Assembly (NCBI GenBank): GCA_002723155.1
Contig: PBNO01000009.1
Location: 43,803 to 107,802, forward strand
DNA: 64,000 nt
Reading direction: 5' to 3'
DNA from: Ponticaulis sp.
GTDB lineage: Bacteria; Pseudomonadota; Alphaproteobacteria; Caulobacterales; Hyphomonadaceae
Below, piece by piece: positions 2,013 to 17,571 of this stretch (the first letter of the stretch is position 1; every line of letters starts with the position of its first letter). The position numbers and the translations under genes were made by a program. The notes beneath the pieces are model-generated. The model was not told where the DNA came from and did not search any database. It was given only the letters and a program-made list of their open reading frames with translations.

Positions 2013-2023
2013 GAGAGGCCTTT

Positions 2024-2932
2024 ATGAAAGCGTTTAAAGCCTGCCTCGCTGGTCTTGCCCTTCTCGGGCTTTCTCCAGCCGCTATGGCTGCCGGCGGCAC
2101 CATGCCACTGTCTGAAGGCGATGCTCCGCTTCCGGACTGGCCGTTTGAAGGTGTGTTCGGTAAATTCGACCAGGCATCTGTCCAGCGTGGCTTCCAGGTT
2201 TACACAGAAGTCTGTGCAGCATGTCACTCTATGGAACTTCTGTCTTACCGTAACCTCGGTGAGCCTGGCGGTCCGTTCTACAATGCTGACGATCCGGAAG
2301 CGACGGAAGCTGCTGTAGCTGAATTCGCGCGCCAGTACGAAATCACTGAAATCGATGATTACGGTGATGAAGTTTCTCGTCCGCGTCGTCCGGCTGACCG
2401 TTTCCCGAGCCCGTACCCGAACGTTCAGGCTGCTGCTGCAGCGAACGGCGGCGCGATCCCTCCGGATTTCTCGGTTATCGTGAAAGCTCGCCCAGGTGGC
2501 GCAGATTACATCTACCGTCTCATGACAGGTTACCCTTCTTATGAGGAGTTCCAGGGTGAGTACGGCGATGAGCTGCACTTCAATGACGACCACTCTCACG
2601 GTGTTCTGACCCAGCCTGCTGGCCTGTACTACAACCCGTACTTCCCGGGCGACACGTCTGGTAACTGGGATGGTGACCCACGCCACGCACCGGCTGGTGG
2701 TTACCTTGCAATGCCACCACAGATCACTGATGGCCGTGTCGACTATATGGACGGCACAGAAGCCACTCAGGAGCAGATCGCTTACGACATTTCTCAGTTC
2801 CTGGCGTGGGCGTCAGAGCCGAAAATGGAAAACCGTAAGTCTCTCGGCCTCGTCGTGATGATTTACCTCTTCTTCCTTGCGATCCTTGTATACTTCTCCT
2901 ACAAGGCAATCTGGCGGAATGTTGAGCACTAG
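2024..2932 (+). CDS. petC: Cytochrome c1
   Basis: Membrane-anchored c-type haem subunit that relays electrons from the Rieske protein to soluble cytochrome c. An N-terminal Sec signal (MKAFKACLAGLALLGLSPA) is followed by the haem attachment motif CAACHS at residues 64-69. A distal Met ligand is plausible in YLAMPPQITDG, and one C-terminal helix (LVVMIYLFFLAILVYFSY) anchors the protein. The 302 residues are somewhat longer than many c1 proteins, with an acidic stretch after the haem motif. It starts 12 bases after petB with AGGAGAGG as ribosome site, and a strong terminator follows, so it closes the petABC operon. Confidence 0.96.
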   Translation: MKAFKACLAGLALLGLSPAAMAAGGTMPLSEGDAPLPDWPFEGVFGKFDQASVQRGFQVYTEVCAACHSMELLSYRNLGEPGGPFYNADDPEATEAAVAEFARQYEITEIDDYGDEVSRPRRPADRFPSPYPNVQAAAAANGGAIPPDFSVIVKARPGGADYIYRLMTGYPSYEEFQGEYGDELHFNDDHSHGVLTQPAGLYYNPYFPGDTSGNWDGDPRHAPAGGYLAMPPQITDGRVDYMDGTEATQEQIAYDISQFLAWASEPKMENRKSLGLVVMIYLFFLAILVYFSYKAIWRNVEH

Positions 2933-2957
2933 GCTGCTCCAACAATAAGAAATCTCA

Positions 2958-2990
2958 GAAGGCTGCGAGTGATCGCAGCCTTCTTTGTTT
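2958..2990 (+). terminator. Rho-independent terminator of petABC
   Basis: An 11-bp perfect stem (GAAGGCTGCGA / TCGCAGCCTTC) with a 4-base loop, followed by a T-rich run, lies 25 bases after the petC stop. It ends the bc1 operon. Confidence 0.9.
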
Positions 2991-3035
2991 ACGGGCTGTT
3001 TTTTACGGCTAGGCTGGCTGTTCAGGGAGGCGGAT

Positions 3036-4262
3036 ATGCGAGCAGGCATCGACTTTGGAACATCCAACACAGCGATTGCTGCCGTGCACGGAAATGATGT
3101 TCGTCTGACCGAGATCGAGCCGGGCGAGACCTCTATCCCGACAGCCATTTTTTACGAAGCTGATACGCGCAGCTTCACCATCGGCAATGCCGCGCTGGAG
3201 ATCTACTCTGAGGGCGAAGAGGGCCGCCTGATGCGGTCTATCAAGTCGATCCTCGGCACTGAGCTGATCGAAGACACAACGCAGCTGGATGGTCGTCGTA
3301 TTCCGTTCCAGAAGGTGATCTCCGACTTCCTTGCGCGCTCCATCCACCAGATTGAGAAGACGGCTCAGGACAGTATTGATCTTGTCGTGCAGGGACGTCC
3401 TGTTTCTTTCAACGATACAGATCCCGCGCGGGACAAACGCGCACAGGATGTGCTGGAAAACTGCCTGAAGGAAATCGGCGTGAAAGATGTCTCTTTCATG
3501 CCGGAGCCTGTCGCCGCTGCGCATTCGGTAGATTTTCCGGTTGGGCGTGAGAACCTCGCTTTTGTCGTGGATATCGGTGGCGGTACCTCCGACTTCTCCG
3601 TTGTGCGCGTCAGTGATGACAATGAAGGCTTTGATGTGCTGGCGAGTTCCGGCGTCTATCTGGGCGGTAACGACTTTGACCGCATCCTCAGCTATTTCGA
3701 GCTGACACCGCTATTCGGGCGCTTGGAAACGCTCTCTGAAAATGGGCTGCCAGTCCCTGTCGCGCTTTACGTGACCCTGTCGGACTGGAAGAGCCATAAC
3801 ATGCTCTATCTGCCGAATATGCGCCGCGAGATTGACTGGCTGATCAAGCATAGTCCGCAAAGCCCGGGGCTTCGCGCATTTGACCATCTTATCCGCAATT
3901 TTGAAGGCGGGCTCTATGCCAGTAAAGTCGAGCAGATGAAGATTGACCTCAGCTCCGCAGACACGGCTGAGTTCAAGTACAAGGCTGCAACGGCAGATCT
4001 CACGCATACGATCGCGCAGTCGGCATTCAATGAGCTGATCGCTGAAACGATAGAAGCCATGGATGTGGCGGCGCAGGAGTGCCTCAAAAGCGCTGGCGTC
4101 ACGCATGATCAGGTGACCGATATCCTGATGGTAGGCGGCTCGACGCTTATTCCGGCTGTAGAGCGCCATTTCGTAGGCCAGTTCGCGCACGCGACCATGC
4201 TCGACAATGACCGGTTCAGCGCCGTTGCCAAAGGCCTTGCCCGTCACGCCGCGACGCTCTGA
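3036..4262 (+). CDS. Hsp70-family protein, YegD-like
   Basis: Putative ATP-dependent Hsp70-superfamily protein of the actin/Hsp70 ATPase fold. Phosphate-1 motif GIDFGTSNTA is at residues 3-12, phosphate-2 motif VVDIGGGTSDFSV near 175, and adenosine-binding motif ILMVGGSTLIPAVE near 360. The 408 residues stop after the ATPase domain, as in E. coli YegD, with no DnaK-type substrate-binding domain or lid, so a classical foldase role is doubtful. The ATG at 3036 is chosen because AGGGAGG sits 5 bases upstream. The earlier in-frame ATG at 2985 would fall inside the petC terminator. Cellular substrate unknown. Confidence 0.85.
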   Translation: MRAGIDFGTSNTAIAAVHGNDVRLTEIEPGETSIPTAIFYEADTRSFTIGNAALEIYSEGEEGRLMRSIKSILGTELIEDTTQLDGRRIPFQKVISDFLARSIHQIEKTAQDSIDLVVQGRPVSFNDTDPARDKRAQDVLENCLKEIGVKDVSFMPEPVAAAHSVDFPVGRENLAFVVDIGGGTSDFSVVRVSDDNEGFDVLASSGVYLGGNDFDRILSYFELTPLFGRLETLSENGLPVPVALYVTLSDWKSHNMLYLPNMRREIDWLIKHSPQSPGLRAFDHLIRNFEGGLYASKVEQMKIDLSSADTAEFKYKAATADLTHTIAQSAFNELIAETIEAMDVAAQECLKSAGVTHDQVTDILMVGGSTLIPAVERHFVGQFAHATMLDNDRFSAVAKGLARHAATL

Positions 4263-4369
4263 TCAGGGTATCAAAATTATCAATCTGTCTGTGAGGCGTC
4301 TGGACCTTCTACGTATTCCGGTGCAGGGAATAGGACGGTCTTGAAGCAATAAAAGTGTGGGATGACGAT

Positions 4370-5242
4370 ATGTCGAAATGGGTTCTGGGCGTTCTTGGTG
4401 GATCCGGCCTCTATGAAATTGACGGCCTTGAGAATGCGCGCGAAGAGCAGATTTCCAGCCCGTGGGGTGAACCGTCCGGCAGCGTAATGCGTGGCAATAT
4501 GGGCGATGTCGAGCTCGTCTTCATGCCACGTCATGGCAAAGGCCACCGCCTGTCGCCAACCCATGTGAACTATCAGGCTAATATTGATGTTCTGAAGCGT
4601 GCAGGCGTAACAGACATTCTGTCAATTTCGGCGGTTGGCTCGCTTCAGCAGCAATATGCCCCGGGCCATTTTGTCTTGATCGATCAGTTCATCGACCGCA
4701 CATTTGCGCGTGAAAAGAGCTTCTTTGGTGACGGCTGCGTGGCGCACGTGTCTATGGCGCACCCGATCTGCGAGCGCCTGTCGCAGCTTGCTTACGAGGC
4801 GGGGCAGGCTGTTGGCGCGACCTGCCATAAGGGCGGCACATATATCGTGATGGAAGGCCCGCAATTTTCGACTTACGCCGAAAGCCAGCTTTATCGCAGC
4901 TGGGGCTGTGATGTGATCGGTATGACCAACATGCCGGAAGCCAAGCTCGCACGTGAGGCTGAAATCCCGTACGCGACTGTTGCTATGGTGACCGACTATG
5001 ACTGCTGGCACGAAGAAGAGGACGACGTCTCGGTTGAGAACGTTCTCAAAATCATGGCGGCAAACTCGTCCAACGCGAAAGAGCTGATCAAAACGCTCTG
5101 TGCTGGCCTTCAGGGGACACCGCGCACGAACGGTACGCAGGGCATTGAGAGCTGCCTCGATTTTGCGATCATGACGCCTGCCGATGTCCGTAATCCTGAG
5201 CTTATGGCGAAGCTGGACGCCGTCGCCGGGCGGGTGCTCTGA
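4370..5242 (+). CDS. mtnP: S-methyl-5'-thioadenosine phosphorylase
   Basis: Splits methylthioadenosine with phosphate into adenine and 5-methylthioribose-1-phosphate, the first step of methionine salvage. PNP/MTAP family features are the N-terminal GVLGGSGLYEIDGL, the phosphate-site stretch FMPRHGKGHRLSPTHVNYQA, and the base/ribose-binding EGPQFST followed by GMTNMPEAKLAREAE. The 290-residue length is normal. I prefer the ATG at 4370; a GTG at 4355 is in frame and would add five residues, and neither has a strong ribosome site. A GST gene starts 1 base after the stop, and apt, which consumes the adenine product, lies 1.3 kb downstream. Confidence 0.93.
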   Translation: MSKWVLGVLGGSGLYEIDGLENAREEQISSPWGEPSGSVMRGNMGDVELVFMPRHGKGHRLSPTHVNYQANIDVLKRAGVTDILSISAVGSLQQQYAPGHFVLIDQFIDRTFAREKSFFGDGCVAHVSMAHPICERLSQLAYEAGQAVGATCHKGGTYIVMEGPQFSTYAESQLYRSWGCDVIGMTNMPEAKLAREAEIPYATVAMVTDYDCWHEEEDDVSVENVLKIMAANSSNAKELIKTLCAGLQGTPRTNGTQGIESCLDFAIMTPADVRNPELMAKLDAVAGRVL

Positions 5243-5243
5243 T

Positions 5244-5900
5244 ATGACCAAGCCTCATCTTATTCTCGGAAATGCCCGTTACTCCAGCTGGTCTATGCGC
5301 CCTTATCTCGTGCTGGAACGGGCTGGTATCGAGTACACGGCGGAGTTCCATCCGCTGCGGACGGACAAATTCCGCGAAGAGGTGAGGAAGGTCTCTCCAT
5401 TTGGGCTGGTGCCTGCGCTCATGCTGGGTGATGAGACGATCTCAGACAGTCTGGCGATCAGCGAATGGGCCGCAGAAAAGGTGCCATCGCTCTGGCCGAA
5501 GGATGAGGTCGCGCGCGGCATGGCGCGTATGCTGGCTGGTCAGATGCACGCCGGTTTTCAGCCGATCAGGCGCGAGCTGCCAATGGATCTCGGCCGTGAT
5601 CACAAGCCTCGCAAAGCGCTCTCTGATGAGGTGTTTGCAGAGATTGCCCGCATGAAGATTGGTTGGGGCATGGCGCTTCACCGGTCTGGCGGGCCGTTCC
5701 TGTTTGGCGACTGGTCCATTGCGGACGCGTTCTATACGCCGGTTGCCAGCCGGTTCCGCACGTTTGCGATCGAGCTCGAGCCGGAGTTTCAGGACTATTG
5801 CGATCTGCTTCTTGCGCAGCCTGAATTCCTGAAATGGGAAGCCATGGCAGCGGATGAAGACTGGGTGATTGAAGACTATCTTCCGCCGGATGAGGCCTGA
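5244..5900 (+). CDS. Glutathione S-transferase family protein
   Basis: Soluble GST-fold protein of 218 residues. The N-terminal thioredoxin-like half shows GNARYSSWSMRPYLVLERAG, with the Ser-rich glutathione activation region, then the cis-Pro segment FGLVPAL and the glutathione-binding ISDSLAISEW. The C-terminal all-helical half carries the N-capping-like FLFGDWSIADAF motif. It probably detoxifies electrophiles or isomerises a substrate, but the substrate is not readable. The start at 5244 follows the mtnP stop with one base between, so translation is probably coupled to mtnP. Confidence 0.88.
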   Translation: MTKPHLILGNARYSSWSMRPYLVLERAGIEYTAEFHPLRTDKFREEVRKVSPFGLVPALMLGDETISDSLAISEWAAEKVPSLWPKDEVARGMARMLAGQMHAGFQPIRRELPMDLGRDHKPRKALSDEVFAEIARMKIGWGMALHRSGGPFLFGDWSIADAFYTPVASRFRTFAIELEPEFQDYCDLLLAQPEFLKWEAMAADEDWVIEDYLPPDEA

Positions 5901-6398
5901 TCAAAGGCCTTCGAGACGGTAGAGTGTAAAGGTTTCGCACGCAGAGGTGCCGCGGCCTGTAGGACGCCCGGAAAACGTCATGCGTCCTGTTCTGTCGCGT
6001 TTGAATTCGCCTTCAACACCAGCGGAACCCCAGCTCGTTTCAGGTTCTTGTAGCCAGCCGGTTGGTTCCGCTTCGAGCCGGTCATGCCTGTAGATCCCGC
6101 TCAATGTGAACGCGCCAGACGGGTGACCGGGATTGCTGGCAAGATCATAAAACCACAGCCTTGCTTCAACGTTGGCTGATGGCGGCATGTTTGCGGCATG
6201 AATATCTTCTATCGTATCAAAGGATATGGTCATGCCGTTCTCGCCACTTGCGCAGATATAGCTGCCTGAATAGATGCCAGGATATTCGGAAAAATAGTCC
6301 AGAGGCGCAGGCGTTTCATGGTCCTGTCCCTGTGCGGATAGAGCGGCTGCTGCGATCATGAATGCAATGACAGCGCCTGATTTCAGACATTTCGACAT
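5901..6398 (-). CDS. Hypothetical secreted protein
   Basis: A 165-residue exported protein that I do not recognise. An N-terminal signal (KSGAVIAFMIAAAALSAQGQ) is followed by a Gly/Ser/Thr-rich, probably beta-rich domain with two cysteines (SYICASGENG and SACETFTLY) that could form a disulphide. The start at 6398 is chosen because GGAGGG lies about 6 bases upstream and the signal peptide then begins directly. The reading frame stays open to 6737, but that extension would cover the apt start and lacks signal-peptide sense. It converges with the GST gene and diverges from apt. Confidence 0.7.
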   Translation of the reverse strand: MSKCLKSGAVIAFMIAAAALSAQGQDHETPAPLDYFSEYPGIYSGSYICASGENGMTISFDTIEDIHAANMPPSANVEARLWFYDLASNPGHPSGAFTLSGIYRHDRLEAEPTGWLQEPETSWGSAGVEGEFKRDRTGRMTFSGRPTGRGTSACETFTLYRLEGL

Positions 6399-6533
6399 TA
6401 CGCCCTCCATTGCCGGAAGGTCTGCCACAAATGGAAATTTGTGACTTCCCCTGAATGGGGGACTCTGTCCACTTTCAATGCTAGGCAGGGCCGATATACT
6501 GACCCGAAATTCTAAACTGGTGAAACCACGCTT

Positions 6534-7061
6534 ATGAACCTGAAAGACACTATCCGCACCATTCCGGACTATCCGAAACCGGGCATCATGTTTCGTGACG
6601 TGACGACCCTGCTTGGCCAGCCGCGCGCATTCCGCCGTGCTGTGGACGAGATGGTTCAGCCTTATGCCGGGACGCGCATCGACAAGGTTGCGGGTATTGA
6701 GGCGCGCGGCTTCATTCTGGGCGGCGCAGCGGCTCACCAGTTGTCAGCCGGTTTCGTTCCGCTTCGTAAGAAGGGCAAGCTGCCATGGAAAACCATGACA
6801 GAGAGCTATGAGCTGGAATACGGCGTGGACGAAATGGAAATCCATGAGGATGCCATTCAGCCGGGCGAACGCGTCCTGCTTGTTGATGACCTGATTGCGA
6901 CGGGCGGTACTGCAGAAGCGGCGATCAAGCTGCTTCGTCGTGCCGGAGCCGAAATTGTAGCGGCTGCTTTTGTAATTGATTTGCCTGAACTGGGTGGTGC
7001 GGACAGGATTCGTGCCATGAATTGTGAAGTTCAGGCGTTAATGGCTTTTGAAGGGCATTGA
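6534..7061 (+). CDS. apt: Adenine phosphoribosyltransferase
   Basis: Converts adenine and PRPP to AMP in the cytoplasm, recycling adenine released by MtnP. The N-terminal hood [20 protein letters not shown] and [15 protein letters not shown] are characteristic of Apt, and the PRPP loop [17 protein letters not shown] is intact. The 175 residues match the family. No terminator separates it from the following clpP-like gene (46-base gap). Its location 1.3 kb after mtnP fits a purine and methionine salvage neighbourhood. Confidence 0.95.
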
Positions 7062-7107
7062 CGTAGAGGGTTCAACGTCACACCTATAAAAAAAATCTGG
7101 AGTTTGC

Positions 7108-7698
7108 ATGTATCGCCTCGACGAAGAAGAAGAATCCACACCGATTGCCGAACCGAACAGCTTTCTTGAGCAGGCGCTTTTTAAAGCTCGTACGATCCTG
7201 CTGACAGGTGGTGTTGACGACAAGCTGGCGCGCCGTGTGTGCGAACGCCTTCTTGCCCTGTCTGCTGAAAGCCAGGACCCGATCCTGCTGGTTGTGTCAT
7301 CTCCGGGTGGCCACGTAGAATCCGGTGACATGATCCACGACATGGTGAAGTTCGTTCCTGCGCCGGTGAAAATCCTTGGTACGGGTTGGGTTGCGTCTGC
7401 TGGCGCGCTGATCTACGCATCTGCGAAACCTGAGAACCGCTTCTGCCTGCCGAACACACGCTTCCTGCTTCATGAACCACGTGGCGGTGTTGGTGGTCAG
7501 GCGTCTGACGTTGAAATTCAGGCGCGTGAAATCATCAAAATGCGTGAGCGTCTGAACAAGATCTTCGCGAATGCGACTGGTAAGTCTCTTGAGCAGATCA
7601 AGAAAGACACCGAGCGTGACCATTGGATGACGGCTGAAGAAGCTGTTGAGTATGGTCTCGTAAGCAAGATCGTCACGAGTCAGAGCGAAATTCTCTAA
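7108..7698 (+). CDS. clpP: ATP-dependent Clp protease proteolytic subunit, ClpP paralogue
   Basis: Serine peptidase of the ClpP family (S14), expected to form a barrel that degrades proteins fed by a Clp ATPase. The triad is intact: Ser97 in GWVASAGA, His122 in RFLLHEPRGG and Asp171 in ERDHWM, the same numbering as mature E. coli ClpP. The oxyanion Gly pair SSPGG precedes it. The N-terminus is acidic and divergent (MYRLDEEEES) and there is no propeptide. No clpX, clpA or lon lies nearby, so this is probably a secondary ClpP, common in alphaproteobacteria. The gene ends at a strong terminator. Confidence 0.9.
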   Translation: MYRLDEEEESTPIAEPNSFLEQALFKARTILLTGGVDDKLARRVCERLLALSAESQDPILLVVSSPGGHVESGDMIHDMVKFVPAPVKILGTGWVASAGALIYASAKPENRFCLPNTRFLLHEPRGGVGGQASDVEIQAREIIKMRERLNKIFANATGKSLEQIKKDTERDHWMTAEEAVEYGLVSKIVTSQSEIL

Positions 7699-7721
7699 GC
7701 TGTAAGTGACAAGCTGAATTG

Positions 7722-7750
7722 AAAAAGCGGGCCGACTGGCCCGCTTTTTT
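7722..7750. terminator. Bidirectional terminator between convergent genes
   Basis: A stem AAAAAGCGGGCC / GGCCCGCTTTTT with a 4-base loop has an A-run on one side and a T-run on the other. It can end both the clpP-like gene (plus) and the hydrolase gene (minus). Confidence 0.9.
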
Positions 7751-7755
7751 ATTGC

Positions 7756-9423
7756 CTAAATGTGTGTGGCCTGTCCCGCCACGATGTACCAGGTGATGAT
7801 CAGAGCTGATAGCAGCGCGCCCGGCAGCACCGCTCTGGCTGACCGCCACGACGCGACAGTAATAAGCGCGGTGAACGTCAAAACCGGAACGAACTGCATG
7901 CCGACAATGCTGAACAGAGGATCAGCAAACGCAGGCAGCTTTCCATTCGCGAACAGATAGCCGTAAACGCCTGCCATCAGCACTGTTATGCCTGCAGCAG
8001 ACAGGAGCCACGCAACAGAGAATTGGGTGAGGAAGCTCTTATACCCTTTGAACAGGTTCGTTGCGGCCGCATTCGACAGATAGAAGAACATGAAGAAGGG
8101 CAGGAGATAGGCTGCAAAAATCGACCAGTGATGACTGCCCATCGGCTTGAGCGCGACAACGAAGAAGCGGAAGTCGACCAGCAAATGATTGTTGATCGCC
8201 GCTGAAATGCCGAACAGAACGCCAAATGTGATCAGGGCAGAGATCAGCCCGCCCGGAGACAGCCTGAAGCCGAACTGGCGGGAAATCAGAAGGCCGAGAC
8301 CTGCGATAAGGCCATTGCCCAGCGCCCATGCCATGATCTGCGTGGTGATGTTCTGACGGAAAATACCAAGGTTCGGGATATGCTCGCCCAGTGAGGTCAG
8401 CGGGAAGAAGAGCACTGCAGGCAATGCAGCGCCGACCAGAATGGCAATCAGCACAACAAGGCCGTTGCCGCTCTGGTCGACCGTGCCTGATGGCGCAAAG
8501 GCGATAACCCGATTGAGAGCTGAGAAGAGCGAGATTGCGAACATGGCTGCACCGATCAGGGCAATCAGCGTGCCAGCCTCTTTCAGATGCCAGACCTGAT
8601 TATCTATTGCGAGCATGTTTGGTGCGCCCAGCGTCATATCCATCCATGTGACAGCGTCTGCAGTGGCTTCAAACGAGAGATGGTCGCCCGGATGGGTGGT
8701 GTTTGGCTGGGTCAGCCAGCGCGCTGTGCCGGCTTCGATATCGCCATAGAGCTGGCGCGGAACGACTGTGTCGTCTGTACCGAACACGCTCTGGAGCTTG
8801 GCGCTGTCTGCTACATCGGCAGCCTGCTCGACCTCCCACATCAGGGTGGAGAACTCGTCAAAACGGCTGAAAATGACGGCCAGATTCCGCGGCCAGTCTG
8901 GTGTGCCCGGCGCGGCAAACGGGGCGCCTGTTGAGGAGCCGACAAGCGCGACGCTGTTATAGGCGTCCGGCATGGCCATCGCCGCTGCAAGGCTCGTCCA
9001 GCCGCCCATTGAGTGCCCCTCAAGGCCGATACGGCTCGTGTCTACGTTCGGGAGGCTGCGCAGATAGGCGAGGCCTGCAGGGCCGCCAAAACCGGCGGCA
9101 AATGCTGTGTTCGTGGAATAACCGTGTCCGCTCTGGTCAAGCGCGAGCACTACGAACCCGCGCCGCGCAAACTCGATAGCGAACGAGCTCTGCGTTTCAC
9201 GGGAGTTGATATAGCCATGCACTGCCAGAATGCCGGGCGCAGGGTTGGCTGCAGTCGCGTTTTCCGGCGTGTAGAGATAGGCGGAAAGCTCGCTGCCATC
9301 CTGAAGCGGGATGCGGACATCCTCGACAGTGACGCCATCAGACGTCTGAACATGCGAAGCGAAGAAACTGCCGCCCAGCATCAGTAACAGCCCGACGACG
9401 AGGCCGAGTAGTGCGCTTTTCAT
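7756..9423 (-). CDS. Alpha/beta hydrolase with C-terminal multi-helix membrane domain
   Basis: A 555-residue inner-membrane protein. An N-terminal hydrophobic anchor (KSALLGLVVGLLLMLGGSFF) is followed by a periplasm-facing alpha/beta hydrolase domain of about 260 residues with LAVHGYINSRE (oxyanion region), nucleophile elbow GHSMGGW and a probable catalytic His in NTTHPGDHLSF. Residues from about 285 to the end form at least six hydrophobic helices. It is probably an esterase or acyl hydrolase tethered to the membrane; the substrate is unknown. GGGAGG lies 7 bases before the ATG. The fusion of hydrolase and polytopic domain is uncommon but occurs in proteobacterial proteins of unknown function. 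Confidence 0.75.
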   Translation of the reverse strand: MKSALLGLVVGLLLMLGGSFFASHVQTSDGVTVEDVRIPLQDGSELSAYLYTPENATAANPAPGILAVHGYINSRETQSSFAIEFARRGFVVLALDQSGHGYSTNTAFAAGFGGPAGLAYLRSLPNVDTSRIGLEGHSMGGWTSLAAAMAMPDAYNSVALVGSSTGAPFAAPGTPDWPRNLAVIFSRFDEFSTLMWEVEQAADVADSAKLQSVFGTDDTVVPRQLYGDIEAGTARWLTQPNTTHPGDHLSFEATADAVTWMDMTLGAPNMLAIDNQVWHLKEAGTLIALIGAAMFAISLFSALNRVIAFAPSGTVDQSGNGLVVLIAILVGAALPAVLFFPLTSLGEHIPNLGIFRQNITTQIMAWALGNGLIAGLGLLISRQFGFRLSPGGLISALITFGVLFGISAAINNHLLVDFRFFVVALKPMGSHHWSIFAAYLLPFFMFFYLSNAAATNLFKGYKSFLTQFSVAWLLSAAGITVLMAGVYGYLFANGKLPAFADPLFSIVGMQFVPVLTFTALITVASWRSARAVLPGALLSALIITWYIVAGQATHI

Positions 9424-9507
9424 TGGATGTCCTCCCGATACGATCTGTGCCGTTTCAGGGGATTAGGACGCAGATTGCCTGATTTGTCGATATATGGATG
9501 ACGAACT

Positions 9508-10614
9508 TTACTGGCGCGCAACCGCCTCTGCGCCAACCGCCAGAGATGAGGTGAGGCCCGGGCTCTCAATACCGAACAGTGCAACAAGGCCTTCAATGCC
9601 GTGCACGGATGGTCCTTCGATGCGGAAGTCCGGTTGTTTTTCGTTCGGGCCGTGAAGCTTTGGCCTGATACCTGTGTAATCCGGCATGAGCGTCCCGTCT
9701 TTCAGGCCCGGCCAGAAGCGGCGTATCGTCTGATAGAAAAGCGGTTCACGGTCGAGTTCGACGTCATAATTCTCATGTTCGACGAAGTGCAGGTCGGGCC
9801 CGAATCGCGCCTGACCGCCAAGGTCGCGGCGATAGTGCGTGCCGAGCGCGCCTTTGATTGGCATCGGGTAGATCAGCTTGCGGAACGGGGCTTTACCCTG
9901 AAGCGAGAAGTAATTGCCCTTGCCGAAATGAATTGTCGGGATCAGTTCCTTCGGGAAGCCTTCCACGCGGTTTGCAACGTCTGCGCAGCTAAGGCCGGCG
10001 GCAAGGAAGAGGCGCTCCGTGGTAAGCTCCATCGGGTCGGCGCCGCCCGTGCGGACGAGGAAGCCGCCACCGGGCAGGGGCTCTGCATGTTCGAACGGCG
10101 TGGAGAGGACCACACTGCCGCCAACGTCTTCGATACGGCCTTCCAGAGCGGTCATATAGCCATGGCTGTCAAACGTGCCGCTATTCGGAGAGAGCAGGGC
10201 GCCAACGGTGCGAAGCTCAGGCTCCAGCGCTTTGGCTTGCGCTGCGCTCAGAACTTCCATTCCGGGCACGCCATTTATGTTGGCCTGTTCCAGAATAGCG
10301 TCCATCCGCTCCAGCTCATCTTCCTCGCAGGCGACAACGAGTTTACCGCAACGGTCATAATCGACTTTGTGGGCATCACAGAATGCATAGATTGCGTCTG
10401 CGCCTTCCACACAAAGGCGGGCTTTAAGAGAGCCTGTAGGATAATAGAGGCCTGCGTGAACAACTTCGGAATTGCGTGACGAGACACCGCTGCCGATCAG
10501 ATTGGCACGTTCGATAACGATTGGCGCAATGCCGCGCTGTGCGAGCGCATAGCCAATCGCCAGCCCGACGGCGCCAGCTCCAACAACAATAGCTTCGGTA
10601 TCAAATTCCGACAC
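9508..10614 (-). CDS. FAD-dependent oxidoreductase, L-2-hydroxyglutarate oxidase (LhgO) family
   Basis: Flavoprotein of the DAO family closest in pattern to L-2-hydroxyglutarate dehydrogenase/oxidase. The N-terminal dinucleotide-binding fold is IVVGAGAVGLAIGYALAQRG, with the downstream family signature SSRNSEVVHAGLYYPTGSLKA and a C-terminal FAD segment ending GLTSSLAVGAEAV. It may oxidise L-2-hydroxyglutarate to 2-oxoglutarate, but other 2-hydroxyacids are possible. A GTG start at 10614 is preferred because GGAG lies 6 bases upstream. A GTG two codons earlier would leave no spacing. Confidence 0.8.
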   Translation of the reverse strand: MSEFDTEAIVVGAGAVGLAIGYALAQRGIAPIVIERANLIGSGVSSRNSEVVHAGLYYPTGSLKARLCVEGADAIYAFCDAHKVDYDRCGKLVVACEEDELERMDAILEQANINGVPGMEVLSAAQAKALEPELRTVGALLSPNSGTFDSHGYMTALEGRIEDVGGSVVLSTPFEHAEPLPGGGFLVRTGGADPMELTTERLFLAAGLSCADVANRVEGFPKELIPTIHFGKGNYFSLQGKAPFRKLIYPMPIKGALGTHYRRDLGGQARFGPDLHFVEHENYDVELDREPLFYQTIRRFWPGLKDGTLMPDYTGIRPKLHGPNEKQPDFRIEGPSVHGIEGLVALFGIESPGLTSSLAVGAEAVARQ

Positions 10615-10821
10615 ACGCACCTCCGGTTCAGTTGTCCTGTACTGGAAGCAGGGCTGCCAGCAATCGCTTCCTTTCAGATATGACTGTAACTACCGTAACG
10701 ACAAGTCCCTAGCGGGCTTTCCTTTTCAGATGCGCTTGACTGACCTTACGTACACCATGCTTGATCATGTTTATATCGACGGAAATCGCGCCCGACAGAT
10801 GGCGCGAACGGGAGGAAAGAC

Positions 10822-12189
10822 ATGCAGCTCGTCAGCGAGAAAATTCTGACAGACAGCTTCAAACCGGACCCGAAGTTTGAGGCGGTTTATCCAAGGCTTG
10901 ATGGATACAAGCTCTGGGATCCGTCATCCTGGACGAATGGTCACCCTCATCAGTTTTACGCACGCATGCGCGAGGAAGCGCCTGTCATGTGGTCTGAAAT
11001 GGGCAAGCGGGGTTCAGGCTTCTGGTCTGTGACGCGCTATGAAGATCTCAAATCTGTTGAGCTGAACCCTGCCGTATTTTCTTCCGAACGTGGCAGCATC
11101 AATATGGCCATCCAGCCGCGCGAGAACTGGAAACCCGCCATTCTGATGGAAGCGGCGATGAACTCGCTGATCAATCTGGATGCGCCGCGCCATATGGAAA
11201 TGCGTATGCAGCAGCTGGATTTCTTCATCCCGCGCTATGTTGCCGAGCTGAAAGAGAAGGTTGAGAAAAAGGTCTCCGAACTTCTGGACAATGTCGAAGC
11301 GAACGGGCCGGAAGTCGACTTTGTGAAGCTGTTCTCTCAGGAGCTGCCGCTCTTCACTCTGTGCGAGATGCTAGGTGTAGACGAGGCAGACCGCCCGAAA
11401 ATCATCAAATGGATGCACTATCTGGAGCTTGCGGCTCAATACACGGCGAACCCGTGGAAAGTCATTATGAGCGAGCCACTCTTCCCGATGAAGTTCTTCA
11501 AGAATGTCGACGAGATGTTCGCTTACGGGAAGCAGGTCATGGCGGACCGCCGCGCGAACCCGCGCAATGATCTGCTCTCTGCGATTGCCAATGCCAAGCT
11601 GGACGGTGAGGAGCTGCCTCAGGAGTTTCTGGATGGCTCCTGGCTGCTGATCATCTTCGCCGGCAATGACACGACCCGAAATTCTGTTTCTGGCACGCTG
11701 CGGCTTCTGACGCAGTTTCCGGACCAGCGCGAAATGGTACTGTCAGATCGCTCAATGATACCAGCCATGTCGCAGGAAGCCCTGCGTCTTGTTTCTCCGG
11801 TGGTGCATATGCGCCGTACGGCAATGGAAGACACCGAGCTGAACGGCCAGAAAATCGCCAAGGACGAGAAGGTTGTCCTTTGGTATGGCGCGGCCAATCG
11901 CGATCCGGACATGTTCCCCGATCCGGACCGGATGGATATGACGCGTGAGAACGTCGATAAGCATCTCGCCTTCGGCCATGGCGTCCATAAATGTATGGGC
12001 TTTCGCGTGGCGCAGATGCAGCTGCGCATCGCCTATGAGCAGATATTCGACCGTTTCCCGAACATTCACTGGACGGGCAAACAGAAGATCGCGCCGAATG
12101 CGCTGGTCCACGCTATTTCCAGCCTTAAGGTCAATCTATACGGCCCGAATGGTGTGAAGCCGACACGCGTGTCTATGGCGTCGGCATAG
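10822..12189 (+). CDS. Cytochrome P450
   Basis: Soluble bacterial P450 monooxygenase of 455 residues. Diagnostic parts are the I-helix IFAGNDTTRNS (oxygen activation), the K-helix ExxR in SQEALRLVS, and the haem loop FGHGVHKCMGFRVA with Cys391 as thiolate ligand. Subfamily and substrate cannot be assigned by eye; the sequence recalls bacterial CYP108/CYP125-type terpene, sterol or fatty-acid hydroxylases. GGGAGGAAAG precedes the ATG. No ferredoxin or ferredoxin reductase gene is adjacent, so electrons must come from elsewhere. It is transcribed away from the LhgO-like gene. Confidence 0.93.
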   Translation: MQLVSEKILTDSFKPDPKFEAVYPRLDGYKLWDPSSWTNGHPHQFYARMREEAPVMWSEMGKRGSGFWSVTRYEDLKSVELNPAVFSSERGSINMAIQPRENWKPAILMEAAMNSLINLDAPRHMEMRMQQLDFFIPRYVAELKEKVEKKVSELLDNVEANGPEVDFVKLFSQELPLFTLCEMLGVDEADRPKIIKWMHYLELAAQYTANPWKVIMSEPLFPMKFFKNVDEMFAYGKQVMADRRANPRNDLLSAIANAKLDGEELPQEFLDGSWLLIIFAGNDTTRNSVSGTLRLLTQFPDQREMVLSDRSMIPAMSQEALRLVSPVVHMRRTAMEDTELNGQKIAKDEKVVLWYGAANRDPDMFPDPDRMDMTRENVDKHLAFGHGVHKCMGFRVAQMQLRIAYEQIFDRFPNIHWTGKQKIAPNALVHAISSLKVNLYGPNGVKPTRVSMASA

Positions 12190-12221
12190 CCGGTCTGTTA
12201 CCGGCTACGCCGTGTCGCCGG

Positions 12222-13472
12222 TTAGTTGAGCGCGTCTTCCAGCTGGGTCAGGTCGCCATCATTGGCGACCGGTTCAACGCCGGTCAGCTGTGCAAGCAGC
12301 GGATAGACTGAAACATTGTCGAACAGATCCACTGTGACGCCGTTCGCGATAGCTGGGCCGTTGGCAATGAAGAGTGCGTGCATAAGCGGGTGTTCAGGAT
12401 CATAGCCATGGCTGCCGCCGCTATTGCGCCAGACCTGCATGTCTGCCGTTTCCCAGCGCCATCCGATGTCGGACAGGCACACGATCGCAGGCACGCGCGG
12501 ATTGGAACCATATTCGAAGCGGGCAGGAAGGTTTTCTTTCAACCAGCACTCGCCATGATCGTGACGGCCGATCAGCGCCGCTTCGACTTCAGCCTCATGT
12601 CCTGCCAGAGGTGAAAGACCGACAAATTCTCCATTCCAGACATAATGAACGAGCGAAGGATCAATGAGCGTATCCATTGAGAAAATCTGCTCGTCTGAAA
12701 CGGGCGCCATGCCATGGTCTGACACCACGATGAGGTTTGTCGTGTCCCGAATGCCGAGTGCTTCAAGGCCCTCGATCAGACGGCCAATGCTGGCATCGAC
12801 CTGAGCTGTGGCAGAAACCGTGCGCGGATCATCCGGTCCGTAGATGTGGCCTGCTGTATCCACGATATCGAAATAGAGGGTCGCAAACTCAGGACGTTCG
12901 TTTTCCGCTACGTCCAGCCAGCGCAGAAGTTGATCAACACGTGCAAAATCCGGAAGGCGCTGGTCGAACGGCATGAAGTCCGACGGACGCTCGCCATGGA
13001 TTTCAAAATCGCTGCCCGGCCAGAACAGGGTTGCTGTGCGAATACCTTGTTGTTCGGCGCTTACCCAGAGCGGTGTGCCTTGTTCCCACCATGCCGCATT
13101 CGACGTGACGCTCGGATCGGAGAGCATGAAGGTGTCGCCAGGAATATCCGGGTCTTCCATCGTGTTATTGACCATTCCGTTATGGTCAGGACGCAGGCCT
13201 GTAATCAGCGTGTAGTGATTAGGAAAGGTCTTGGAAGGGAAGGAGGGCTGCATGCGGCCCGTCGCGCCCGTTTCAGCCAATCCGTTCAGAACCGGCGTGA
13301 CGCCGCGTTCGAGATAATCCGGGCGAAAGCCGTCAATGGAAATGAGGATAGTCAGTTCGCTTTCGGTTGCGCTGGGCGCAGCGTCGGAGACGGAGACTGG
13401 CGGCGATGTGGTTTCGCAGGCCGAAAGCAGCAGGGCTGCCGAGCATGCAAGAGAAGACAGGATGCGTATCAT
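12222..13472 (-). CDS. NPP-type nucleotide pyrophosphatase/phosphodiesterase, lipoprotein
   Basis: Periplasmic, lipid-anchored hydrolase of the alkaline phosphatase superfamily. A lipobox (LLLSAC, near residue 15) follows a short signal. Metal and nucleophile motif ISIDGFRPDYL is followed by the SKTFPNHYTL stretch with the catalytic Thr, and later metal ligands lie in DTAGHIYGP and VVSDHGMAP. This matches ectonucleotide pyrophosphatase/phosphodiesterases, which cleave nucleotide or lipid phosphodiesters. The start at 13472 is chosen so that the lipoprotein signal is N-terminal; the frame is open much further upstream but through the downstream edge of the chemoreceptor gene. Confidence 0.87.
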   Translation of the reverse strand: MIRILSSLACSAALLLSACETTSPPVSVSDAAPSATESELTILISIDGFRPDYLERGVTPVLNGLAETGATGRMQPSFPSKTFPNHYTLITGLRPDHNGMVNNTMEDPDIPGDTFMLSDPSVTSNAAWWEQGTPLWVSAEQQGIRTATLFWPGSDFEIHGERPSDFMPFDQRLPDFARVDQLLRWLDVAENERPEFATLYFDIVDTAGHIYGPDDPRTVSATAQVDASIGRLIEGLEALGIRDTTNLIVVSDHGMAPVSDEQIFSMDTLIDPSLVHYVWNGEFVGLSPLAGHEAEVEAALIGRHDHGECWLKENLPARFEYGSNPRVPAIVCLSDIGWRWETADMQVWRNSGGSHGYDPEHPLMHALFIANGPAIANGVTVDLFDNVSVYPLLAQLTGVEPVANDGDLTQLEDALN

Positions 13473-13584: not shown

Positions 13585-15111
13585 TCAGGCAACCGCCTTT
13601 TTGAGGAAGTCCTCAACACGTGCCGTGATGCGCTTGCCTGCTTCGCGAACTTCATCAGAGACGCCGAGAATGGTTTTCGCCGCGTCGGATGTTTCTTTCG
13701 CTGTGCGTGCAGCGGTGCTGACCTCGTCTGCCGCACGGCGTGTGCTGTCAGATGCTGTTGCTACGTTGCGAGCGATCTCGTCTGTTGCAACGCCTTGCTG
13801 GTCGATTGCAGCTGACACCTGCAGAGTGAACGAGCTGATGCCGTCCATTTGCTCTGTGATCGCAGCAATCATGTCTGTTGTTTCTTTCGTGACAGACTGA
13901 ATCTGCTGAACCTGATCGGAAATCGTCTGGATCGCATTTGCAGTCTGATCGGCAAGGCCCTTCACTTCAGAGGCAACAACCGCAAAGCCTTTGCCGCTTT
14001 CGCCGGCACGAGCTGCTTCAATCGTTGCGTTGAGAGCAAGAAGGTTTGTCTGAGCCGCAATATCGCTGATCAGGTTTACAACGTCGCCGATCGCCTGAGC
14101 GCTTGTTGCGAGCTCCGTGACTTTCTGACGGGACGCGTGTGTGGAGCCCGTCGCCTTCTCAACCAGCTCTGTAGAATGGTTAATCTGGTTGACGATCTCA
14201 TTGATGCTGGACGCAAGTTCCTGAGCCGCGCTTGCCGCAGAGCCGACGCTTTCAAACGCGCTGGACGTCGCTGTGTCCATGCTTTGCGCTTGAGACCGTG
14301 ATCCATCAGCTGAACGCTCAAGCGTTGTTGCTGTGTTGTTGAGAGAGTCCATATCAGCTGCGAGCGCATCCAGAAGACCTTTAACTTCGGATTCGAACTC
14401 TGTGGCAGATTCCTGAAGTGCATTGTAACGCAGACGTTCGCTTACGGCTTTAGCTTCTGCGTCAGTCTTAAGGCGGTTCGCTTCCGCCTCAGCTTCTTCA
14501 GCTGTGTGAACTGCGCTTTCAGCTGTTTCAAGGGCGCCGCGAACAGCAGACAGAAGGCTGGTGATCTTTGTAGAGAGGAAGATCAGTGCGCCGCACTCAA
14601 TGATCAGAATGCCGCCGTGAAGCAGAACGCGAACGAGAGGCGCGCCATCCGGGAAGGCGAGCGTTGGCACGAACAGGGAAGCACCAAGGTGGTGTGCAGC
14701 AACCGCGAGCGTGTACGCGACCAGAGCTTTCCAGCACATCAGACCTGTCAGGATCGCAAGGCCCGCAAAGAAGGTCATGTGCATGTCGATCTGATATGCG
14801 ATGCCTTCGCCATTCCATTGGAAGTTATAGACGAGCAGTGCAAGGATACCAGCAACGCTGACGCCAGTGCTGACAGGCATTGCGCCGTAAAGCGGTTTTG
14901 AGAAGAACGCTACGGTTGGCAGTGCTGCAAGACCAATAGAGACCAGTGTCACGAAAGTCGCGTGGCCATGTCCGTTAAACATCGCAATCGCGCTAATCAC
15001 GGCAGCAGTCAGCCAGGTCAGAACCAGAATACCCTGCGCCACAGGGCGTCGAACCGCGTCGATTTTGAAATCGTCGCTGCTAAGTTTGGAAATGTCTTTA
15101 GTACCGCTCAT
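13585..15111 (-). CDS. Methyl-accepting chemotaxis protein with polytopic membrane sensor domain
   Basis: Chemoreceptor of 508 residues that signals through CheA/CheW. The first ~190 residues form about six hydrophobic helices with His-bearing segments ([19 protein letters not shown]) and no sizeable periplasmic ligand domain. A charged coiled coil (about 195-235) joins it to a cytoplasmic signalling domain with the hairpin tip [20 protein letters not shown]. No typical HAMP domain is evident. It probably senses within or near the membrane, for example redox state or a small hydrophobic ligand; that is inference. It lies 26 bases downstream of a small secreted-protein gene with which it likely shares a transcript. 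Confidence 0.9.
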
Positions 15112-15137
15112 AATTGTTCACCCAGTAATACCCGTTT

Positions 15138-15425
15138 CTATGGCTGACACATTTGCGCGTAGCTTGCGTCTAATACGTAATCCGCACCGAGGGCATAGAG
15201 CGCTCTGGACGTGTTGCCCGTTGGGTCGTTGACGATCAGGTGCCGGAAGTCCGGATTGAACGAAACGACCTCGAGACCGAGACGACGCGCCTCAGCCTCC
15301 ACGTTTTCAAGCGCAGCATCCTCGCCAAAAATAGCGAGTATGTCCTCTCCCGCCTTAGGGCTGAGATTCAGCGCCAAAACAGGCAGTAACGAAAAAAGTA
15401 TAGAAAACAGTATGTAAGTACGCAT
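15138..15425 (-). CDS. Small secreted hypothetical protein upstream of the chemoreceptor
   Basis: A 95-residue protein with a clear signal peptide (YILFSILFSLLPVLALNL) and a compact mature part of about 75 residues, mixed alpha/beta, with one C-terminal Cys. I do not recognise the family. The mature part (LEVVSFNPDFRHLIVNDPTGN) looks like a small globular periplasmic domain. Because the chemoreceptor start lies 26 bases downstream, the two are probably co-transcribed. A periplasmic partner of the receptor is conceivable but unsupported by any recognised homology. Confidence 0.65.
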   Translation of the reverse strand: MRTYILFSILFSLLPVLALNLSPKAGEDILAIFGEDAALENVEAEARRLGLEVVSFNPDFRHLIVNDPTGNTSRALYALGADYVLDASYAQMCQP

Positions 15426-15595
15426 TGTGTTTCCTTTGCGTACTCTTATCCCTTATTTCCATGTGGAATTAGTAAATGAGAATGTTCACATCTTACGTAA
15501 TCAGGGACGAAATTGTCGCAGCAGAAGTTGTAATCTGCATTTTAGTTTAACTTGAGGACGTTTTGATTTTGTCTTCAACTCTAAATTAAACTGGC

Positions 15596-15612
15596 ACTGG
15601 TGGGCCCGGAGG
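15596..15612. repeat. Distal copy of the tRNA 3' end (candidate attachment-site remnant)
   Basis: Seventeen bases (ACTGGTGGGCCCGGAGG) identical to the 3' end of the CAU tRNA gene, including its encoded CCA, at 16611-16627. The offset between copies is 1,015 bases. The match ends after 17 bases, so this is not a second tRNA gene. It has the form expected of an integration attachment core left at the far end of an inserted unit. Confidence 0.75.
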
Positions 15613-15712
15613 AAGCAGTACCAAACCGTCAAGGCTAATCACGAATGGGAATAACTGCTGCAGCCTTCGTCACTGGACACGGCTAAACCACCAGAGCTAG
15701 GCTTCTGGGATA

Positions 15713-16549
15713 CTAAAAAGGCAGATCTTGGGACGTTACGTCTTCTATGTGATCGACCACCGCAACAATAGCATTGATCGTCGACCGGACGTATGCATCA
15801 TCAAAATCGGTGAGCTTCTTGCCCTCCTTGTCGCATCCATTGCGATGCACGCAATGGTGCCTCTTCGCCATTGCGGGAAAAAGAATGTCGCTTTGCTCTT
15901 TCGAAGCAAAAGGTGTGACGCCGAAAGCGTCACGATAGAGCACGTTCACGACCGACAGATTGTGATAAAGGATGCCTTTTAATTCATGGACGACGCGTTG
16001 AGTTACCGCGCTTGGATCCGCAGCGAGATCAGCGGCAGAAATAGAGATTTCTCCCAGCTGCTTGTTGTTCCTAAGCAGTTCGTTGCGGACGCTCTCATTG
16101 CCCAACACGGCGTTGATGAGAGTATCGCCCAAGTATGCCTCAAGCGATGAGACGGCGCCAGCGAAGACCAATCTATTGGTGAATTGCGGATCTGCTTTTG
16201 GGCTGTTGGAACCCACCATGTCCATCAACAAATTCAATGATTCCTTGGCGATGGAATGCGGGTTGGACGGAGGCTCATAGTCTTCCTCCGGTTCATACAT
16301 CGGCATGTCACCGCGGATCGAGAATTCGTGCGGATCTTGCATTTCAATCTCAACGCCGCTGAAATCGACGAACACGTCCCCCGAGTACACGGTTTTGCAC
16401 TTATCGCATTCTATATCGATACAATCGTCAACGCCCATTCCAGACATTTTTTCGGCTGCGAAGTTTAATTCGGGAACGCTTACATTTTGGTCGTTGCCAT
16501 GCCCGCAATCTGGACAAGCCCAAAGAATATGTGATGTGAACTTTTGCAT
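15713..16549 (-). CDS. Zinc-ribbon protein with HEPN-like C-terminal domain
   Basis: A 278-residue protein without close family recognition. The N-terminus carries a four-Cys zinc ribbon (CPDCGHGN at residues 12-19 and CDKCKTVY about 37 residues later), then an acidic linker. The C-terminal helical half contains RHHCVHRNG, an R-x4-H motif like the catalytic pair of HEPN ribonucleases, followed by a long helix. HEPN domains occur in toxins, abortive-infection and RNA-processing proteins, so an RNA-cleaving defence function is a reasonable inference, not shown. No Shine-Dalgarno sequence precedes the ATG. The gene is alone inside the tRNA-bounded unit and is more AT-rich than its neighbours. 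Confidence 0.7.
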   Translation of the reverse strand: MQKFTSHILWACPDCGHGNDQNVSVPELNFAAEKMSGMGVDDCIDIECDKCKTVYSGDVFVDFSGVEIEMQDPHEFSIRGDMPMYEPEEDYEPPSNPHSIAKESLNLLMDMVGSNSPKADPQFTNRLVFAGAVSSLEAYLGDTLINAVLGNESVRNELLRNNKQLGEISISAADLAADPSAVTQRVVHELKGILYHNLSVVNVLYRDAFGVTPFASKEQSDILFPAMAKRHHCVHRNGCDKEGKKLTDFDDAYVRSTINAIVAVVDHIEDVTSQDLPF

Positions 16550-16612
16550 TTTGAGTCAAAAATTTCTCTATTTATCAATATCTTATAGAAAATTTATGCC
16601 TCGAAAATCTAC

Positions 16613-16689
16613 TGGTGGGCCCGGAGGGACTTGAACCCCCGACCAGACCGTTATGAGCGGTCCGCTCTAACCAACTGAGCTACAGGCCC
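16613..16689 (-). tRNA. tRNA with CAU anticodon (tRNA-Ile2 or elongator tRNA-Met)
   Basis: A 77-base cloverleaf with encoded CCA. Acceptor stem GGGCCTG pairs with CGGGCCC, anticodon stem GACCG/CGGTC encloses loop CTCATAA, and the T-arm contains GGTTCAAGTCC. The paired first acceptor base rules out the initiator. CAU is read either as methionine or, after lysidine modification, as AUA isoleucine. The stem sequences resemble alphaproteobacterial Ile2 tRNAs, but I cannot settle this by eye. Its 3' end is the duplicated 17-bp sequence. Confidence 0.93.
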
Positions 16690-16836: not shown

Positions 16837-17571
16837 ATGACTATCGTCAAACCGCTCGCCAGCGTTGCCGCCATCGCGCTGGCATTTACCGCTATCCCCG
16901 CAACGGCTCAGAGCATGCAACATATGAATCATAATTCCATTCAGCCTGAAACGACGCTGAATATCTCTGCGACATCGTCTGTAAGTGCTGCGCCTGACAT
17001 CGCTTTTCTTTCCGGTGGCGTGACGACCGAGGCGCGCACGGCTGCAGAAGCCATCCGCCAGAATGCTGCTGACATGGCCGGCGTTTATGCTGCCCTTGAG
17101 CGTGCCGGACTTGAGCAGGCCGACATTCAAACATCGAACTTCTCGCTGAACCCGCGTTATAACTATCCGCAGAATTCAGAACGCGTTCTGGTCGGTTATA
17201 CGGCCTCTAACCAGCTGCGCGTGACCGTACGCGACATGGATAAAGTTGGCGGCGTGATTGATGCCATGGTTGCCGAGGGCGGCAATACGTTCTCTGGCGT
17301 GCAGTTCGGCGTGGAAGATCCGAGCGAGCTGCTGGATGAAGCGCGCCGCGATGCCATGCGTGATGCCATGTCCCGCGCCAATCTGTTTGCAGATGTATCA
17401 GGTCTCAGCGTTGCGCGTATCGTGACGATTTCGGAGAACACACAGTCTGCACCATCGCCGCAGCCAGTCATGATGCGTGCTGCGGCTATGGAGGCTGCAC
17501 CAACCCAGATTTCAGGTGGTGAACTCAGCTTCTCTGCGACAGTGAATGTCGTCTTCGAATTGGAAGAGTAA
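16837..17571 (+). CDS. SIMPL domain (DUF541) periplasmic protein
   Basis: Secreted protein of 244 residues. A signal peptide (PLASVAAIALAFTAIPATAQS) precedes a SIMPL/DUF541 domain with the typical opening LNISATSSVSAAPDIAFLSGGV and central NPRYNYPQNSERVLVGYTASNQL. Members form oligomeric periplasmic or surface assemblies and have been linked to oxidative stress in some bacteria; the exact role is uncertain. AAAAGGAG lies 7 bases before the ATG. The TfoX-C gene follows after 4 bases, so the two are probably co-transcribed. Confidence 0.88.
   Translation: MTIVKPLASVAAIALAFTAIPATAQSMQHMNHNSIQPETTLNISATSSVSAAPDIAFLSGGVTTEARTAAEAIRQNAADMAGVYAALERAGLEQADIQTSNFSLNPRYNYPQNSERVLVGYTASNQLRVTVRDMDKVGGVIDAMVAEGGNTFSGVQFGVEDPSELLDEARRDAMRDAMSRANLFADVSGLSVARIVTISENTQSAPSPQPVMMRAAAMEAAPTQISGGELSFSATVNVVFELEE

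Follow-up and report, generated by a model that had tools for sequence, protein, structure and literature searches.

The 64-kb stretch of DNA analysed here (the window) contains a single tRNA gene by ARAGORN, an intact gene with the anticodon CAT on the minus strand at 16613–16689, which served as an integration target. A repeat search showed that its 3′ end is duplicated: the 17-nt sequence ACTGGTGGGCCCGGAGG is present as an exact direct repeat at 15596–15612 and 16611–16627, 1,015 bp apart from start to start, and these two copies lie on one strand of the window with none on the other. The original prediction had taken all 17 bases as the end of the tRNA; the exact repeat is confirmed, but by the ARAGORN boundaries the tRNA-proximal attachment-site core (16611–16627) consists of the last 15 bases of the tRNA and two bases beyond it. 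The copy at 15596–15612 is the displaced tRNA 3′-end copy and forms the distal core, as placed by the repeat search and by alignment with empty sites. A search of the organism's own genome with up to two mismatches returned the two exact copies and one site with two mismatches, of which only the exact copies are informative because a reversed control pattern gave four matches at the same setting. Rfam gave 40 tRNA matches in this genome, and as a control 39 distinct tRNAs were read for up to 12 kb downstream, with just 1.4–5.6 kb before the contig end for five of the others and 2.6 kb for the window tRNA. The window tRNA was the only one of the 39 with a same-strand 3′-end copy reaching the CCA, and three others had internal matches of 14, 11 and 11 nt. 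A chance repeat was ruled out by the exact 17-nt identity, by the empty sites in relatives and by the lack of such a copy at the other 38 tRNAs. Three CAT tRNAs were among those read in the genome, and the label ‘tRNA-Met’ given to the window tRNA is mechanical; it is probably a tRNA-Ile2, since its sequence features are presumably those of the lysidine-bearing isoacceptor. Elsewhere in the same genome (contig C17, L191), the intact tRNA-Thr is followed 1.4 kb downstream by a degenerate copy of its full length, with an ORF between the two that is named a GNAT-like acetyltransferase by sequence alone; five congeners showed tRNA-sized matches only to this unit.

Between the two cores there is one ORF of 278 aa (15713–16549, minus strand), and no integrase match was found among the ORFs of the unit, using an integrase profile built here and single integrases; the unit thus has the one-gene content without integrase that had been predicted. 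The gene had also been described as AT-richer, which holds for its overall GC content (0.498 versus 0.532–0.570 in six neighbour genes) but not for its third positions, where the GC content of 0.577 falls inside the range of the six neighbours (0.558–0.691). The inner non-coding end on the distal side (15613–15712) resembles the 3′ flank of a Maricaulis relative in the first 71 bp past the gene (blastn). On the tRNA side, the inner end is an AT-rich stretch of 61 nt (16550–16610), whose sole non-self match among the loci collected was 22 nt in L151 (E 0.19). The two inner ends have no 7-mer in common and no repeated arm-like motif, with only a single TACCAA located 6 nt inside the distal core. 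Resident genes lie on both sides, namely a 95-aa ORF and a methyl-accepting chemotaxis gene on the distal side (13585–15425, minus strand) and a SIMPL/DUF541 gene on the tRNA side (16837–17571, plus strand). Several familiar kinds of element were considered and rejected: an IS or MITE, as the inverted pairs listed are not at the two ends of the unit; a prophage remnant, as there is one gene only; and a PICI-like phage satellite, which needs an integrase, a regulator and packaging or interference genes, as the unit is a single gene without integrase.

To compare occupancy of the site, the SIMPL gene was used as an anchor in six congeners (G001–G006). In G001 and G003 the chemotaxis-side flank continues straight into the tRNA, with the chemotaxis-side genes directly adjoining the tRNA and with one core copy. 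Colinearity is retained across the site in both: window positions 15521 and 16611 correspond to 11434 and 11508 of the G003 locus (L014), and 15443 and 16611 correspond to 5071 and 4919 of the G001 locus (L015). Right of the core, 130 of 130 bases are identical to the window in both congeners, and none of the 985 14-mers of the unit is present in the empty-site locus of either. Because the sites in G001 and G003 are empty, carry one core copy and lack the 14-mers of the unit, site-specific recombination must have added 1,015 bp to the window, of which 998 bp lie outside the extra core. The other three anchored congeners apart from G002 are not clean tests of occupancy: G004 has the tRNA but a different gene order and no displaced core in its genome by the pattern used, in G005 the tRNA is on one contig and a displaced core is on another, where it adjoins a chemotaxis gene, and in G006 the anchor is weak and there is no displaced core copy. 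A homologue of the cargo gene was found in two of 105 family genomes at E<=0.001, the own genome included; the other (G055) has 24% identity, and no tRNA was found in the 17.7 kb read at that locus. Hence the relatives do not all carry the gene and the second repeat at a site that is never empty, an arrangement that would have spoken against insertion.

Deletion between two direct repeats gives the same empty site as one never occupied, and the arrangement in the window could in principle be ancestral, with the gene lost from the congeners. We consider this very improbable, as both close relatives are without any trace of the unit among the 985 14-mers and 103 of the 105 family genomes lack a homologue at E<=0.001. 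The gene and the distal core could also have arrived as the tip of an island by homologous or transformation-type recombination between tRNA-end copies, with no integrase acting in this lineage. In favour of this, the resident flank beside the distal core has diverged from both congeners, as if its edge had been replaced before. However, the junctions are exact at the core, and RecA-type exchange would have had little homology to work with in a core of 17 bp; such an exchange seems quite unlikely to us. The diverged flank itself comprises 68 bp of resident DNA (15528–15595), which is identical to G003 at 21 and 19 positions in two bins of 34, compared with 31–33 of 34 in the bins before 15528; this is perhaps the scar of an earlier occupancy.

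The same tRNA end is occupied by a different element in G002. Here the core recurs 15.1 kb from the homologous tRNA and is followed by the homologous chemotaxis gene, and the island in between (L028, contig C12, 1233–16443) has, next to the tRNA, a gene for a 409-aa tyrosine integrase with an Arm-DNA-bind_3 domain. Its cargo includes TerB, BrxC/D and DEAD-helicase genes, which PADLOC assigned to SngA, SngB and SngC, the genes of the Shango system. TACCAA(C) is repeated near both cores of this island, twice on the distal side and three times on the tRNA side (two of the three inverted). No homologue of the cargo gene of the window was found in the G002 genome (E<=0.001). The two elements share the tRNA, the core sequence and the homologous resident flank, but differ in size, in integrase, in the repeated arm-like motifs and in cargo. 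The original prediction of tyrosine-recombinase integration had pointed to relatives with empty sites and with other cargo at the same tRNA as the places to look, and both kinds were found, in support of such integration: two of the six congeners are empty, and the integrase-bearing island of G002 carries other cargo between copies of the same core. We conclude that this tRNA(CAT) site is an insertion hotspot at which cargo differs among congeners.

Further traces of the core were found by pattern searches. The pattern TGGTGGGCCCGGAGGH matched three of the 105 family genomes versus two for its reversed control, so that it is the positions of the matches that carry weight: one is that of the window and the other two lie beside a chemotaxis gene. 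Among 385 class genomes, four matches including the own one, against five for the reversed control, are at chance level, and no tRNA was present in the three matching class-genome stretches that were read. The displaced core of G005 lies near 9964 of L029 (contig C10), beside the chemotaxis gene, and the DNA that continues from it is 87% identical to the end of the G002 island over its first 61 nt, core included. The G005 draft (87% complete, 6% contamination) may mix strains, its tRNA being on another contig than the core. In viral data, three IMG/VR contigs (L060, L061 and L062) have AAACCAYGG and paired TTCCAACA repeats after the tRNA core; these look like putative phage attP sites, and because of them phages may use the tRNA(CAT) site too. 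An attP-like pattern with the neighbour bases of the unit and of the G002 island matched 0 viral contigs and a looser one matched six, of which L059, L063 and L064 look coincidental.

The protein encoded by the unit has two CxxC pairs near the N-terminus, forming a zinc-ribbon-like part, and the motif RHHCVH (R230-x4-H235) near the C-terminus, and is a predicted RNase. In an AlphaFold2 model (pLDDT 92.6) the N-terminal part is rich in beta structure and the C-terminal part is helical (helices 97–273), and the R-x4-6-H motif that characterizes the HEPN superfamily thus lies within the helical domain. R230, H231 and H235 are invariant in eight proteins found by similarity, that of the window included, and also in a 36-member set, where the invariance is partly by construction as the set was gathered partly by a HEPN-motif pattern. 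RiboL-PSP-HEPN (PF18735) matched 12 of the 36 members at E<=0.01, the window protein not being among them; L057, a relative on a Spartinivicinus plasmid that is annotated as HEPN domain-containing, matches above the Pfam cut-off. The window protein has no significant match in Pfam, NCBIfam or PADLOC; its best Pfam hit, Polyoma_coat2 (E 0.0029), is below the cut-off and was taken as chance. It is similar to phrog_29321, a family with function not assigned (E 2.4e-9). At E<=0.001 Foldseek matched nothing, and it ranked a connectase, not a HEPN protein, first; the weak matches below it included chains of 5yep (probability up to 0.80) and of 6m6u, 6m6w and 7bxo (0.41–0.54), with TMt of 0.42–0.54. 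The latter three are MntA toxin–antitoxin entries, and the matching chains of all four are presumably HepT-type HEPN toxins.

In its R-x4-H motif in a C-terminal helical domain, and in having relatives that match PF18735, the protein is thus like the RiboL-PSP-HEPN group of the HEPN superfamily as that group is described in PMC3710099. It differs in having no PF18735 match of its own, in its N-terminal two-CxxC part and in that the unit has no second gene that could be an antitoxin. With the motif intact, the protein is probably a stand-alone RNase, and the gene is a candidate stand-alone defence gene. Compared with its nearest relative (L078), the gene has a dN/dS of 0.16, at a dS of 1.26 that is near saturation, and appears from these values to be under purifying selection.

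Relatives of the gene were collected from genome contigs, and 80 loci were kept of 85 relatives. A tRNA is present in 21 of the 80 loci, and in 10 loci a same-strand copy of the 3′-part of the tRNA (>=12 nt exact) was found, with the HEPN gene between tRNA and copy in each, a position somewhat favoured by the fact that the HEPN gene is near the middle of most loci. After L119 was dropped, as its 12-nt repeat is too short, and L137 was added (17 of 20 nt), the count remained 10 of 80. The tRNAs of these ten loci are those for Met, Phe, Arg (three), Lys, Leu, Thr (two) and Asn. The profile built here detected an integrase in seven of the ten, six clearly and one weakly (L080, backed by a Pfam SAM-like domain), and none in L079, L100 and the first unit of L083. 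The HEPN gene lies 134–280 bp from the distal repeat in three loci, with the opposite orientation in L100, and 2.6–9.9 kb from it, not at the tip, in the other seven. As 10 of the 80 loci have the HEPN gene bracketed by a tRNA and a copy of its end, we conclude that this family is recurrent cargo of tRNA-bounded islands, though not always at the tip. Further relatives are encoded in the Pseudomonas phage LKA5 and on plasmids; no relative was confirmed by a HEPN search of viral contigs. G341 has a half-HEPN fragment that contains a stop (62% over 77 aa), for which no tRNA repeat of 14 nt was found.

One G220 contig (C5; L030/L083, L073 and L077) has five same-strand copies of a tRNA-Arg end, at 66856, 73704, 74413, 82030 and 92045, the last of which is inside a tRNA called as Cys. 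These copies bound stretches of ∼6.8, 0.7, 7.6 and 10 kb, and their flanking motifs are partly common; the first stretch contains a weak STAND/NACHT gene below the cut-off, a weak DzbB-matching gene and the HEPN relative. In L079 (Stappia sediminis), a stretch of ∼10.5 kb (1815–12360) lies between tRNA-Met and a 36-nt repeat of the 3′ part of this tRNA. It contains the HEPN relative, a HATPase gene and a reverse-transcriptase match just below the cut-off, and no integrase was detected in it.

The nearest relative of the protein, with 71% aa identity over the full length, is that of Maricaulis alexandrii (L078), and its surroundings bear on the origin of the unit. DNA similarity between this locus and the window extends 71 bp past the gene (blastn) and is followed by weakly similar bases, 35 in the window and 40 in L078, that are hardly alignable, after which GGCCCACCA comes next in both. 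This 9-mer is the tRNA-end sequence at the boundary of the window's unit, and it is the sole one in the 20.8-kb L078 locus, at 10949. It was spotted by eye, and a change point in GC content, computed later without using the 9-mer, was placed by the best single fit at 10942 (from 0.54 to 0.65), 7 bp before it. The low-GC side carries a TIR gene and a gene of a MobA/VirD2-type relaxase, with two kilobases (7–9 kb) at 0.60. Hence the Maricaulis gene appears to sit at one margin of a larger block that bears a relaxase gene and has an end similar to that of the window's unit. Neither tRNA nor integrase was found in the 20.8-kb locus, and therefore the Maricaulis island would be either longer than 10.9 kb or itself decayed.

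The original prediction had left open whether the unit is a satellite or cassette mobilised in trans or the deletion relic of a larger island, and the second reading is the one that we favour, with the deletion event itself being inferred. The unit would be what a deletion left of an integrative (mobilizable) island that targeted the tRNA and was once larger, namely its distal tip, and thus an extremely small CIME, to which we give a probability of roughly 0.65. This reading is favoured because the closest relative is at the edge of a relaxase-bearing island beside the same tRNA-end sequence, and because the unit is without recognisable paired arm-type sites. A larger element with the same tRNA-side end was not found among the loci and congeners compared. 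Also against this reading are the lack of a tRNA and an integrase in the L078 locus, its core match of only 9 nt after a hardly alignable stretch, its two richer kilobases, and the seven tRNA-bounded loci in which the HEPN gene is away from the tip. As the empty sites show, an element recombined its tRNA-end copy with the chromosomal one at the 3′ end of tRNA(CAT), which rebuilt the tRNA and left the displaced 17-bp copy at the far end; this element was probably an integrative mobilizable island like that of Maricaulis. The interior would then have been lost in a deletion that started within ∼60 bp of the tRNA-side end and reached the upstream side of the terminal gene, taking the integrase and any transfer genes with it and sparing one gene and both att cores. 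The remaining CIME would not move by itself but might do so once a compatible island had inserted beside it. The retained zinc-ribbon HEPN endoribonuclease would most likely act as a stand-alone anti-phage or abortive-infection effector, and would have been kept since it is beneficial to the cell.

The alternative in trans is that the unit never had an integrase and is a one-gene cassette moved by the integrases of co-resident islands or prophages, a ‘hitcher’ in the term under which helper-dependent elements have been reviewed (PMC11389934). Other elements do use the same core (the G002 island, the G005 contig and the IMG/VR contigs L060–L062), three of the ten tRNA-bounded HEPN units had no detected integrase (L079, L100 and the first of L083), and the five same-strand copies of one tRNA-Arg end in G220 delimit stretches as small as 0.7 kb and as large as 10 kb. 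Nevertheless, we found no second small unit with these ends, no other tRNA of the own genome with a 3′-end duplicate reaching the CCA within the stretches read, and, at the unit ends, neither a common 7-mer nor the repeated TACCAA(C) of G002 beyond the single TACCAA. The lack of arm-like repeats would argue against mobility by integrases of the G002 type, and the Maricaulis relative sits in a larger low-GC block. A cassette of this kind is therefore an unlikely origin, and it is doubtful that the unit is a minimal solo defence cassette (core, HEPN RNase gene, core) that still moves in trans. If it were, the integrases moving it would be those of islands and phages competing for tRNA(CAT), and island finders that require an integrase and >=2 kb would overlook one-gene units of this sort.

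As a decayed island the unit has known counterparts. CIMEs are described as decayed ICEs or IMEs that have lost the integration and transfer genes and retained attL and attR (PMC5704250), and in Dehalococcoides 15 ssrA islands that lack an integration module have been suggested to be such elements (PMC3146451). The unit resembles these as far as the two accounts define them: it keeps both att ends, as two exact 17-nt cores at which arm sites were not recognised, carries no integration or transfer genes, is site-specific at a (t)mRNA gene and has a proposed origin in the decay of a larger element. In contrast to them, it measures just 1,015 bp with one gene, no integrase-bearing island adjoins it, and parent-type islands are seen only in its relatives. 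It also shares with islands of the Islander type an intact tRNA and a displaced 3′ fragment in the same orientation, but differs by the selection rules given in the Islander description, under which an integrase gene is required and candidates <2 kb are rejected (PMC4383910). Integrase-only defence islands of unclear mobility have been noted in E. coli (PMC10121019), and no one-gene tRNA-bounded unit was recognised within the literature searched. Since CIMEs and decayed islands are already known, the distinctive point here is the size, one gene in 1,015 bp.

The locus provides a base-precise case of how small an integrated island can get, with both ends and one apparently selected gene surviving, and names a tRNA site at which congeners vary in cargo. 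Because Islander, by its published rules, demands an integrase and >2 kb, it would miss this unit, and comparable one-gene remnants may be common and go uncounted. The zinc-ribbon HEPN family, which is carried by many tRNA-bounded islands, provides a candidate stand-alone defence gene.
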